This document shows positions 16,649-41,076 of a stretch of DNA of 41,076 bases, one piece after another. The notes under the pieces were generated by a model. The model was not told the DNA's origin. It ran no database searches and worked only from the letters and a program-made list of their open reading frames with translations. The stretch comes from Methylacidiphilum caldifontis (GTDB lineage: Bacteria > Verrucomicrobiota > Verrucomicrobiia > Methylacidiphilales > CAMAQI01), in NCBI GenBank assembly GCA_945877805.1, contig CAMCSM010000016.1, positions 1-41,076 of the forward strand, written 5' to 3'. Both the position numbers and the translations under genes were made by a program. Within the stretch, counting starts at the first letter, position 1. Every line of letters begins with the position of its first letter.

Positions 16649-16690
16649 ACTCATCACGATTCTAAGGAGGGAAAAGAACTCTCTTAGGAA

Positions 16691-16945
16691 AAGGATCGTG
16701 AAACGATAAGGTAAAGCCGCTGGAAGCGAAAATAATTTTGGTACAGAGGGAATACCATTCGTGAAACGAAAAATAAGAAAACAGGGTCTGATTGTTTGGT
16801 GCGGGAGCAAAACCCAGAGGAGCTTTAGCGACGATAAATACAGTATATGGAATCTAACTTGTTTGGAATGGGGTAGCAGGGATTCAACCAAAACAAAGTT
16901 TTGTACGGGGCACAACCAAATCGAAGATTTGTATGGGGGTACAAC
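16691..16945. repeat. Mosaic mini-hairpin repeat block 1
   Basis: ATCGT-GAA-ACGAT (16695-16707), CGCT-GGA-AGCG (16718-16728), TTCGT-GAA-ACGAA (16758-16770), CAAAAC-AAA-GTTTTG (16889-16903), CAAATC-GAA-GATTTG (16917-16931). Reverse complement matches parts of 27350-27500. Confidence 0.8.
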
Positions 16946-17041
16946 TTAGCAGAAATGCAGGAAAAATACCGAATTCGCCGCAGGGTAACCCCGCACAGCG
17001 GTCGTATAAGCATGAACCTAAAGATAACAACCTAAACAAAT

Positions 17042-17166
17042 TTTAGCCGCAAAAGAACGCAGAGAACGCAAAATATAATCGGGCCTCAAAAAATCTTCTT
17101 TTCTGGAACAAACTTTAACCTGAATTGTTTTTTCATTTTTGAGTTCTTTGCGTTCTCTGTGGCTAA
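17042..17166. repeat. Imperfect inverted repeat of TTTAGCCRCARAGAACGCARAGAAC words
   Basis: Left arm 17042-17072 and right arm 17136-17166; a related single copy lies at about 316-342. Confidence 0.75.
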
Positions 17167-17194
17167 ATCAACGGTTTATTTTCACGACAACAAT

Positions 17195-18127
17195 CTAATT
17201 CCCTGGCAACGGAGGGCGTATCTCCACTTGAGGCTCATTCGACTCTTGCGCTGAATAATGAAGCGCGCGTTGATTCTCCTCCTGCAGCAAGGTTGCGACA
17301 CTATGACCTTTTTTCACAACGCGATTCGGAGCAAAAACAAGTTCAATCCGACGATTCTCCTGCTCTTTCCCCTCCCCAGGAATAGTTAACGGCATATACT
17401 CTCCGCGGGAGACAAGAGCCAGTTTTGTCGGAGAGACTCCGAGTCGAATCATATAATCTAAAACCTTTTCCGCACGCTCAGAGCCAATCTTCCAATTACT
17501 TTTTGTCCCCGGCAACGAATCGGTATGGCCTTCAACCGCCATATAATAATCCCCCGAATAAAATTCGAAGACCTTCGCAATGACCGCCATTTGTTCCAAT
17601 ACGGGCGCAGGCAACTCCGTGGCCCCCGGATCAAAACAGGCCCCCGGAAGTTGAACCACCACATAGGGCCCACTACGATAAGCCGGAAGTTCAGGAAAAA
17701 GATTCGCAAGTGTTTCAATCAGAAGTTTTGCATCCTCCGGTGCCGCTCCATTTAATGGACGAGAAAAAACCGGCTTCGTAATCTCCGAGGATTGACTCTG
17801 AACCTCCTCAAGCGATTTCTTAAGAGCTTCTAAGCGCTTTTGTAACGACTCGATCGTCGCCTCTTTATCTTCCGATTGAAGGGTGAGCTTCTGAAAATCT
17901 TTCAGTAACCGCTCATTTTTTTGCATCAATTGTTGTCGCGCATCACGAACATTGACCATCTCTCGATATTGAAAATACATCACCCCCACGATCCCAAGCA
18001 GAACCATCGCGACAAAAATAAAAAGATACTTCACCCAATTCGCTAAGCGAATTTGGAGAATGCGGGGAGCCCCAGGAGTATCATGTAACTCAACCCCTGC
18101 TCCTGTCATCGAGTTTTCTTTTTTCAT
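17195..18127 (-). CDS. OmpA/MotB-type peptidoglycan-binding domain protein, inner-membrane anchored
   Basis: One N-terminal TM, coiled coil, then VEGHTDSLPGTKSNWKIGSERAEKVLDYM...NRRIELVF. Confidence 0.88.
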   Translation of the reverse strand: MKKENSMTGAGVELHDTPGAPRILQIRLANWVKYLFIFVAMVLLGIVGVMYFQYREMVNVRDARQQLMQKNERLLKDFQKLTLQSEDKEATIESLQKRLEALKKSLEEVQSQSSEITKPVFSRPLNGAAPEDAKLLIETLANLFPELPAYRSGPYVVVQLPGACFDPGATELPAPVLEQMAVIAKVFEFYSGDYYMAVEGHTDSLPGTKSNWKIGSERAEKVLDYMIRLGVSPTKLALVSRGEYMPLTIPGEGKEQENRRIELVFAPNRVVKKGHSVATLLQEENQRALHYSAQESNEPQVEIRPPLPGN

Positions 18128-26712: not shown

Positions 26713-26789
26713 CAACTGTCCCGATGGAATCGGGAATGACACAGGAGTGAAGCGAACTTAAAAACATTCAAACAGGGATAAAGACATTG

Positions 26790-26903
26790 CCTCACGCAAA
26801 GGCGCAAAGCTTCCCAAGGTTCTCCCCTTAGGAATTTCGAAAAGAAAAAAATCATTTGCCTTTTCGGGAGGAGCCTTGGGAAACTTCGCGGCTTCGTGTG
26901 AAA
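26790..26903. repeat. Long imperfect inverted repeat with CTCACGCAAAGGCGCAAAG words
   Basis: Arms cctcacgcaaaggcgcaaagcttcccaaggttctcccc and gggaggagccttgggaaacttcgcggcttcgtgtg around a ~40-nt centre. Confidence 0.75.
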
Positions 26904-27000
26904 AACTGTATTTGGGTATTTTTCATAATCTCTTGGACGATAGATATTTATAAACTTCAGGAAGTTTACTTCACTAAGAGCCGTTTTGTCTAGCCTCGCC

Positions 27001-27252
27001 ATAGCCGGATAGCCGGATAGCTGAATAGCTTGATAGCCGACTTGTCCGCCAGAGTCCCGCAGTGCGGGACGACGGAGGATGCGTCGCCTGCCACGAGTTT
27101 TGTGTCGGGGCCGCGGGAAACACTCCCCTGTATTATAAACCTAGTGGCATGGTGATTGTCGAGAGGGGGTGCTAGCCCCCCAGACTCGACAATCACCATG
27201 CCACTAGGATAAATGAATTTAAGCTATCCGGCTATCCAGCTATCCAGCTATT
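27001..27252. repeat. Composite inverted-repeat element bounded by inverted ATAGCCGG-type tandem 8-mers
   Basis: Five ATAGC(C/T)xx 8-mers at 27001-27040, inverted counterparts at 27221-27252; inner palindromes at 27054-27070 and 27140-27208; related end at about 30044-30074. Confidence 0.8.
27140..27208. repeat. 24-bp perfect inverted repeat with inner hairpin
   Basis: CCTAGTGGCATGGTGATTGTCGAG (27140-27163) / CTCGACAATCACCATGCCACTAGG (27185-27208); loop holds GGGGG-TGCTAG-CCCCC. Confidence 0.95.
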
Positions 27253-27349
27253 AGACGATTTGGCCTTCCGAGAGGAGCGAAGATAAGCGGTTTAAATTGA
27301 ATTTTATAATCTTGGCGAATTTTATCGAACCTACGAAGCCCCTTCTCAC

Positions 27350-27520
27350 CCTTTGCAAATCTTCGATTTGGTTGTGCCCCCATGTACCCCTGCACCAAAC
27401 GTTCGAGACCCTGTTTTACGTTTATTTGCTTCGCAATTGGTTTTCTGGTTGGTTGAATCCCTGTTACCCCAATTCAAACCTTTTAGATTCCATGGGTTTG
27501 ATTTCGTTTTACGAAGGTTT
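27350..27520. repeat. Mosaic mini-hairpin repeat block 2 (inverted relative to block 1)
   Basis: CAAATC-TTC-GATTTG (27356-27370), TTGC-TTC-GCAA (27426-27436), TTCGT-TTT-ACGAA (27503-27515); GGTTGAATCCCTGYTACCCC shared with block 1. Confidence 0.8.
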
Positions 27521-27698
27521 TCCCTAGGCTCTCCAAATGGTTTCCTATTTTTAATTGCGTTATCACGCAGGGAGTGGCGGTTAAACCCTATCCTTTCACG
27601 ATCCTTTTCCTTCGATCGATCGGTTTTTCTTCTCCCGAAAAGAACTATCTCATTTTTACCCTTGCGAAATCCTATAAATCTCGCAAAGTACTGACATT

Positions 27699-28668: not shown

Positions 28669-29631
28669 ATGTCAAAACCTCGCAATCTTAAAGTCTTCTC
28701 AGGCAATGCTAATATTCCATTGGCTCAAGCAATCGTCGACTATCTTGGAATCCCACTCGGGAAAGCGACGGTCACCTCCTTCCCCGATGGAGAGACCTTC
28801 GTTAAAATTGATGAAAATGTTCGCGATCAAGATATCTTCATCGTTCAGCCCACCTCCACACCGACAAATCAGAACTTAATGGAACTTCTGATCATGATCG
28901 ATGCCGCACGCCGTGCGAGCGCCGATCGGATCACTGCCGTGATCCCTTTCTACGGCTATGCCCGCCAAGATCGTAAAGATCAGCCCCGGGTCCCGATCAC
29001 TGCCAAGCTCGTTGCGAATCTCTTAGTGGCTGCCGGTGCCTACCGAGTCCTGACGATGGATCTTCATGCCCAACAGATTCAAGGTTTCTTTGATATTCCC
29101 GTCGACCATCTCTATGCCGCCCCTGTATTTTATAACTACCTCAAAGCAAAAAACCTCGACAATTTAGTCGTCGTCTCCCCCGATGTTGGTGGAATGAAAC
29201 TGGCCGCTTCCTATAGTCAAATGTTGAATGCCGGACTCGCAATCGTCACTAAAAAACGATTGAGTGCCACCTCCGTTGAATCCGGTTTTTTAGTCGGTGA
29301 AGTCAAAGACAAAGATGTCCTTCTCGTCGATGATATTACGGAAACGGCAGGAACCATTACCGCCGCCGCTCGACTCCTTAAAAAAGAGGGGGCCAAAAGA
29401 ATTTTTGCCGGAATTTCCCATGCCCTCCTCGGTGAACTTGCGGTCTCACGACTCAAGGGTTCTGATATCGACGAACTGATTACCACCAACAGCACCCCTG
29501 TTCAGCCCATTGAAGGATTTAACATGAAAGTCCTCAGCGTCGCCGAGATCTTAGGGGAAGCCATTCACCGAATTCACTCCGGTGAGTCCGTCTCCTCCCT
29601 TTTTAATATCGATAATAAAAAATCGTTCTAA
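28669..29631 (+). CDS. prs: Ribose-phosphate pyrophosphokinase
   Basis: FSGNANIPLAQAI; DGETFVKIDENVRDQDIFIVQPT; VLTMDLHAQQIQGFFDIPVDHL; DVLLVDDITETAGT. Confidence 0.96.
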   Translation: MSKPRNLKVFSGNANIPLAQAIVDYLGIPLGKATVTSFPDGETFVKIDENVRDQDIFIVQPTSTPTNQNLMELLIMIDAARRASADRITAVIPFYGYARQDRKDQPRVPITAKLVANLLVAAGAYRVLTMDLHAQQIQGFFDIPVDHLYAAPVFYNYLKAKNLDNLVVVSPDVGGMKLAASYSQMLNAGLAIVTKKRLSATSVESGFLVGEVKDKDVLLVDDITETAGTITAAARLLKKEGAKRIFAGISHALLGELAVSRLKGSDIDELITTNSTPVQPIEGFNMKVLSVAEILGEAIHRIHSGESVSSLFNIDNKKSF

Positions 29632-29654
29632 AGAAATTCGAGGCTAAATTCCTT

Positions 29655-30030
29655 ATTTCAAGTCTTCGCTGGAAACGGAAATAGTTTTGGCTCGCAGGGC
29701 TAATTCTTCAGTTGTTGTAAACTCCTCATTTTGAGAGCTAAACGCCAATACATTTAAACCTAAAAAAGCAGTTGGAACCACGGATCACACGGATTTTCAA
29801 CGGTTTAGGAAAAATTGCCCCTACACCCTGTGGGTGAAGGAAAAAACAGCGGTTCATTTTTATAAACTCCTCCATCCGTGGTATCTGTGTTATTTGTGCC
29901 CCCATCCCCCACTGCACCAAAATTACGAGCACCTCCGGTGGCTTAAGTTGTTCGTTTTACGAACCTTTTGTGGTTAAATGGATTGCCGATTCTAGGTTTA
30001 TTGCTTTGCAATGGGTTTTCCTGGTCCCTA
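29655..30030. repeat. Mosaic mini-hairpin repeat block 3
   Basis: CACC-TCC-GGTG (29930-29940), GTTCGT-TTT-ACGAAC (29950-29964), ATTGC-TTT-GCAAT (30000-30012); degenerate CGCTGGAAACGGAAATAGTTTTGG at about 29667-29690. Confidence 0.75.
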
Positions 30031-30086
30031 TGGAAAATTGATTTAAGCTATTTAGCTATCGGGCTATCCGGCTCATATTCATCTGC

Positions 30087-31334: not shown

Positions 31335-31492
31335 ATCCCAGATCATGCAATAGGAATCGGTTTACCTCTCAAAAGATATTACCAAAATGGTGATAAAAAA
31401 TGGAGGGGCAGCCCCGACCTGTCGGGGCTGCCTTCCCCGCAGCCCGAGGCAGACGGCGTCTGCCCCTCCAGTTCTAATGCAAGATATGGGAT
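31335..31492. mobile_element. MITE-like non-coding element with terminal and subterminal inverted repeats
   Basis: TIR atcccagatcatgcaa / ttctaatgcaagatatgggat; inner TGGAGGGGCA / TGCCCCTCCA; internal hairpins 31377-31395, 31407-31432, 31448-31464; same architecture at 40862-41076. Confidence 0.7.
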
Positions 31493-31508
31493 AATCCCAT
31501 TTCTTGCA
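31478..31508. repeat. 15-bp near-perfect palindrome made of back-to-back element ends
   Basis: TGCAAGATATGGGAT-a-ATCCCATTTCTTGCA, one mismatch. Confidence 0.85.
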
Positions 31509-31654
31509 ATAGAGCCAAAACCCAAAAGCATTTCAAAATAGGGAAAGCAGGTCTTTAAAAAACCAAAAATTCAGATGTCTTTTTTCCTTTTTTTAAAAAC
31601 TTCTAATGCAAAAAAACTGCCTTTGAATTTCAGGAATCCATCAGCCCACGCTTA

Positions 31655-40861: not shown

Positions 40862-41076
40862 AACCCATTTCTTGCATTGGGAATGGATATACCTCACAAA
40901 CGATATCACCAAAATGGTGATAAAAACTGGAGGGGCACAGGCTCTGTGCCTCATCGGACGGGGAAAAGGCTCGTAAAACGAGAAGATCTCTCCGCTGGAA
41001 GCGGAAATAATTTTGGTACGGAGGGAGGAGGGGGTACAACTGCAGCCCCGACCTGTCGGGGCTGCCCCTCCAGTTC
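40862..41076. mobile_element. Second copy of the MITE-like element, truncated by the window end and carrying extra hairpin modules
   Basis: aacccatttcttgcattgg left end; TATCACCA-AAA-TGGTGATA (40904-40922), GGCACAG-GCT-CTGTGCC (40934-40950), CTCGT-AAA-ACGAG (40970-40982), TCCGCT-GGA-AGCGGA (40991-41005), GCAGCCCCGAC-CT-GTCGGGGCTGC (41042-41065). Confidence 0.7.

Follow-up and report, generated by a model that had tools for sequence, protein, structure and literature searches.

The intergenic blocks of the window, the whole 41,076-nucleotide stretch from Methylacidiphilum caldifontis analysed here, probably consist of nested non-autonomous MITE-like mobile elements that share a structured cassette, optional and about 90 nt long, and their folded single strand would be under selection. 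No fewer than four unrelated host elements carry the cassette, a similar cassette is nested inside it with the enclosing stem P3 kept, its stems covary, and repeat blocks present in one species are missing in another. The stems are conserved by pairing and not by sequence. An earlier sequence-only reading had described a dispersed mosaic family of mini-hairpins with interchangeable, self-complementary stems, and the stem covariation bears this out. The cassette in different hosts, the cassette within a cassette, the long-range P3 stem and the presence or absence of copies between species go beyond that reading.

As contig C16, the window belongs to the draft genome (G000) of a lake bacterium, 2.94 Mb in 169 contigs. 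Two genomes of the same genus were compared with it: CAMAQI01 (G002), labelled Methylacidiphilum sp. Phi, and the metagenome-assembled genome (MAG) CAMCYL01 (G001), with nucleotide identities to G000 of about 91% and 78%, respectively. The public name of CAMCYL01 is Akkermansia muciniphila, yet it shares its genus with a Methylacidiphilum-labelled MAG, and the name looks wrong.

Repeat blocks of the window and anatomy of the cassette

The features of the window are as follows, where R1 is a covariance model of the type 1 cassette with 63 positions.

16681..17195, plus strand: whole repeat block; missing in G002, where the flanks are joined with 0 bp between them
16681..16690, plus strand: 5' arm of element F7, CTCTTAGGAA, compared with the intact F7 copies L020 and L025
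16688..16750, plus strand: cassette type 1 (R1 match)
16695..16707, plus strand: hairpin hpA, ATCGT-GAA-ACGAT (hairpin count, covariation)
16718..16728, plus strand: hairpin hpB, CGCT-GGA-AGCG (hairpin count, covariation)
16741..16942, plus strand: stem P3, GTAC (16741-16744) with GTAC (16939-16942), enclosing nested modules
16751..16815, plus strand: cassette type 2, nested in P3, with hairpin hpC TTCGT-GAA-ACGAA at 16758-16770
16800-16802, plus strand: closing triplet TGC of type 2, which can pair with GCA at 16910-16912 (by eye)
16816..16905, plus strand: third module, with the putative closing triplets AAT (16867-16869) and ATT (16882-16884) (by eye)
16889-16903, plus strand: third-module hairpin CAAAAC-AAA-GTTTTG (hairpin count)
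16917..16931, plus strand: hairpin E, CAAATC-GAA-GATTTG; some of the other copies have the inverted loop, TTC
17041..17180, plus strand: second repeat of the block, with inverted ends AGCCGCAAAAGAACGCAGAGAACGCAAA and TTTGCGTTCTCTGTGGCT (by eye, limits approximate)
26714..27653, minus strand: repeat block; about 96 bp at the G002 site
27349-27444, minus strand: cassette type 2 and hairpin E, within the block 26714..27653
29616..29699, plus strand: weak partial type 1 match with the hpB region kept (R1, E = 0.004)
29908..29970, minus strand: cassette type 1 in an F5 (AACCAC...) element (R1 match)
40864..41076, plus strand: F2 element, broken off at the contig end
40963-41025, plus strand: cassette type 1 in the F2 element, with P3 formed by TAC (41017-41019) and GTA (41034-41036)

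The interval 16691-16945, to which attention had first been drawn, is real but forms only part of the larger block 16681-17195. The 3' arm of F7, TTCCTAAGAG, is not seen in this block, and the F7 copy looks truncated. A reading of the block as a set of nested brackets is possible, GTAC/GTAC, TGC/GCA and AAT/ATT, the last two recognised by eye. A second F2-type element at 31337-31510 lacks the cassette and has hairpins that differ in their stems, GGCAGAC-GGC-GTCTGCC as against GGCACAG-GCT-CTGTGCC.

Three hairpins make up the core cassette: hpA, hpB and P3, of which P3 has a loop rich in G. In type 1 the order is AAAAGG, hpA, a linker of about 10 nt, hpB, AATAATTTTGG, P3 and CAA. Hairpin hpA has 5 bp and a loop that is mostly AAA or GAA, hpB has 4-5 bp and mostly a GGA loop, and the P3 loop of the short-form type 1 copies is about 14 nt long (12-16 nt). 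Type 2 follows a similar plan, with AAAACC, hpC and TTTGG accompanied by TGC/GCA, CGC/GCG or CAC/GTG. Long copies carry type 2 within the P3 loop of type 1, and P3 still pairs, across about 70-104 nt; in the window copy the distance is about 195 nt, and further modules lie in between.

The short perfect hairpins noticed in the sequence-only reading, at least a dozen, are present and exceed expectation. In the four window blocks pooled, perfect hairpins with a 3-nt loop number 22, 13 and 7 for stems of at least 4, 5 and 6 bp, while the means of dinucleotide shuffles are 5.3, 1.4 and 0.4; the observed counts were reached in none of 300 shuffles. Loops of 4 and 6 nt show no excess over shuffles in these blocks, and loop-5 counts are inflated because each loop-3 hairpin, read with a shortened stem, scores as loop-5 too. 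The similarity of flanking sequence between the blocks is also real (repeats D2, D5, I1, I4, I5 and I6). Genome-wide there is no excess particular to 3-nt loops: in the intergenic DNA of the three species, approximately 124 kb, hairpins with loops anywhere from 3 to 10 nt are mostly more numerous than in shuffles, by about 1.1-6 fold. The 3-nt loop therefore marks the repeat family and not the genome. The weight that had been placed on stable GNA-closed DNA mini-hairpins is not supported by the copies, as the hpA loop is AAA in the majority of cases and a T-A pair closes the majority of hpA stems.

Host elements, distribution and mobility

At least four inverted-repeat elements that are unrelated to each other, F5, F7, F2 and F10, have the type 1 cassette immediately interior to their 5' arm, and a fifth host is an element with the word CGCAGAG. 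The sequences on the two sides of the cassette are AACCAC and ATAACACAGATACCACGGAT in F5, CTCTTAGGAA and GCAGGAATGC in F7, GACGGGG and TGCAGCCCC in F2, and AACCGCC and CGAAAGGCAAAAAACGCCAAG in F10. Three of the hosts, F5, F7 and F2, also occur without the cassette, and the F5 flanks are near-identical in loci L191 and L192; the cassette-free hosts come from a regular-expression search in which some matches are spurious, and those of F10 are few cases. The ends of F2 are terminal inverted repeats, CCCATTTCTTGCAT ... ATGCAAGAAATGGG, and its insertion is accompanied by a 5-bp target duplication, ATGAA, judged against an empty site in G000. At locus L030 the F2 duplication ATAAT was read without an empty site. 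The cassette itself, with the ends AAAAGG ... CAA(C), lacks terminal inverted repeats, and no target duplication is found at the cassette-host junctions, a clean duplication being seen for F2 only. The cassette could also represent a new class of genome parasite, a small structured nucleic acid that would be recognised by its fold and not by sequence and would insert site-specifically into the arms of other mobile hairpin elements, with a relative inserting into the cassette's own loop. We consider this unlikely, though conceivable.

Word-repeat inverted elements (with the words CACGGAT, CGCAAAG, GATAGCCG and GCAGGAAT) fill intergenic blocks, in the window at 26714-27653 and 29655-30075 and in other genera at loci L304-L314. 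Of 196 genomes of the phylum, 25 contain the F5 word-repeat pattern, against 0 in the reversed control, and the pattern is spread more widely than the cassette. For word repeats of the CACGGAT kind the count is these 25 of 196, with up to about 58 copies in one genome. A literature search on word repeats and on repeats of Verrucomicrobia gave no name or useful description for them.

A BLAST search with 16680-16950 gave 61 matches in G000. Core copies found with R1 number 75 in G000, 28 in G002 and 10 in G001, about 110 in three close species; these are lower bounds, because contigs of G000 often break in repeats or group II introns (for example C15, C68, C83, C97, C147 and C168). For the same reason nested arrays may be incomplete where they reach the end of a contig. 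In the remaining 59 genomes of the order R1 gave one weak match (27 bits, in G005), which was rejected by eye since the family features are missing. Among 390 genomes sampled across the phylum, the R1 cassette was found in none of the 389 other than G000, and plasmids gave no match. A single match in a viral contig looks like chance within coding sequence, as do pattern matches in Ferruginibacter, Ignavibacteriae and Omnitrophota MAGs. As far as searched, the repeat family is restricted to three species of one genus, the order of which is probably Methylacidiphilales, to judge by the label of G002.

An alignment scan of G000 against G002 revealed 14 indel differences. Several contain members of these repeat families, and one is an F2 element inserted cleanly, with 5 bp duplicated. 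Any single block absence in G002 could instead be a deletion. Copies are rarely at orthologous places in the two genomes, and almost no orthologous repeats are available in G002 for watching stems change in place. The short F2 copies have no ORF, and no autonomous element with matching ends was found in the genome stretches examined; one long interval considered as such a partner contains a group II intron reverse transcriptase instead. Matches to group II intron domain V number 21 in G000, 9 in G001 and 2 in G002. These introns sometimes adjoin repeats, as at G000:C87:68-146 (L323), G000:C4:60-141 (L328), G000:C138:5850-5931 (L007) and G002:C87:5049-5127 (L161). In the last of these an F2 element has its subterminal hairpin directly against the 3' end of the intron; the ORF there matches a group II reverse transcriptase/maturase. 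Other intron copies adjoin terminator-like hairpins, so that hairpins in general may be the intron target.

Covariation and the order of stem changes

Covariation was counted on 40 distinct short-form type 1 copies, and the per-copy statistics were drawn from extracted genome stretches; since repeat copies share ancestry, the counts are not independent. Two-sided changes occur in 8 of the 13 stem pairs, and 98.1% of cells are paired, compared with 22-49% in controls with a slid structure. Cells with both sides changed number 110, against 33 in shuffles, and the score was reached in 0 of 500 shuffles. The covariation for which the sequence-only reading had proposed a test is found with count tests, which were used in place of R-scape. 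The middle three pairs of hpA are almost invariant while its outer and inner pairs vary, and the P3 triplet is of four kinds, TAC/GTA, CTC/GAG, TGC/GCA and CAC/GTG.

When type 1 copies are compared in pairs, two-sided differences that keep the match climb from 1.5% of cells at small distances to 37% at large ones; one-sided differences stay at about 5% throughout. In closely similar copies one-sided stem changes exceed matched two-sided ones by 50 to 16. A two-sided rise together with flat one-sided differences would be the prediction of selection for pairing in the spreading lineages combined with neutral decay. We propose that a folded single strand, either sense-strand RNA or ssDNA, may be recognised by a putative enzyme during propagation. 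If recognition is by the fold, spreading copies would be selected for pairing and not for stem sequence, and copies that have landed would then decay by private, uncompensated mutations.

The same stems could in principle arise by neutral template switching (quasi-palindrome correction), in which one arm serves as the template for its partner and stems would stay perfect and covary without function. Such switching is described for RNA genes (PMC8794818), and it would fit the inversion of a loop in an unchanged stem (CAAATC-GAA-GATTTG and CAAATC-TTC-GATTTG), the CT/AG loop variants of the F2 GCCCCGAC hairpin and the many transversions among the stem changes. Against it stand the dominance of one-sided changes in close copies and the G-T intermediates for pairs in all three hairpins: C-G, T-G, T-A in hpA; CACC/GGTG, CACT/GGTG, CACT/AGTG in hpB; and TAC/GTA, TGC/GTA, TGC/GCA in P3. 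The near invariance of the middle hpA pairs next to variable ones and the pairing of P3 over up to about 195 nt also argue against it. Template switching may also act in these repeats but fails to explain the order of changes, and as a full account we regard it as improbable. Two origins had been offered in the sequence-only reading, a structured module and template-switch repair; the former is favoured, while the latter is disfavoured as the sole cause.

The non-Watson-Crick cells comprise 22 G-T, 7 A-C and 21 others. When they are collapsed by host and position, by a rule of our own and among related copies, the numbers are 18, 7 and 17, and the surplus of G-T relative to A-C has a one-sided P of 0.02. 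This 18:7 excess on one strand leans weakly towards RNA. Fold energies show no difference between one strand and the other, and RNA is only slightly favoured over ssDNA as the folded strand.

An ordinary cis-acting RNA that happens to be repeated, for example a terminator or an mRNA-stabilising 3' structure, would agree with the G-T excess and with the position of the copies, 41 of 61 of which (one count) lie downstream of a co-directional gene. Between tandem gene pairs, type 1 is also sense in 21 cases and antisense in 9 (P 0.04). This orientation bias is not robust, as it disappears when type 2 is added (28 sense vs 18 antisense, P 0.18). In addition, the rarity of copies at orthologous places and the presence of the cassette in unrelated repeat hosts speak against a cis-acting RNA. 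We find this explanation quite improbable.

Relation to known systems and meaning

The family is neither coding nor CRISPR, as had been stated, and the direct repeats form no regularly spaced repeat-spacer array. It is also no known RNA family. In the window no Rfam family is at or above its gathering threshold, and in eight element loci only tRNA and group II intron models passed, neither of which corresponds to the cassette; matches to CsrC/RsmY in these loci, which had raised the idea of CsrA sites, are weak and far below the gathering score. HEARO-type mobile structured RNAs occur as dispersed, ORF-less structured copies, as does this family. It differs from them in having no Rfam match to any such family.

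The closest likeness is to bacterial MITEs (reviewed in PMC10969869 and PMC2229807), which are short, non-coding and dispersed, with inverted-repeat ends and presence or absence between close genomes. The host F2 is MITE-like in its inverted ends and 5-bp target duplication. The present elements differ in sharing a covarying three-hairpin cassette at a fixed place in several unrelated elements, with a similar cassette nested in it, and the cassette itself has no target duplication. Repeated structures with compensatory changes are also seen in the Borrelia plasmid intergenic RNA motifs (PMC2674063).

As in REP, BIME and REPIN sequences (PMC3733652, PMC8266576, PMC3116915), the copies are mosaics of short extragenic palindromes in high number, some with a 3-nt loop, the REPs of S. 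maltophilia being perfect palindromes with such a loop (PMC8266576), and the genus carries Y1_Tnp genes. With REP defined as in PMC3733652, mobilisation by a RAYT (REP-associated Y1 transposase) is nevertheless mostly refuted and very improbable, since AAGG directly precedes all 84 of the 84 parsed hpA hairpins, the flanks of hpA, hpB and hpC contain no GTAG and CGTC only once, the Y1_Tnp loci of the genus have no cassette, and the stem sequences are not conserved.

Dispersed hairpin repeats of bacteria are usually treated as families of sequence, whereas the roughly 110 copies described here show a cassette kept by its fold. The family lends itself to testing whether selection or replication repair maintains such hairpins, and it suggests a putative mobilising activity.
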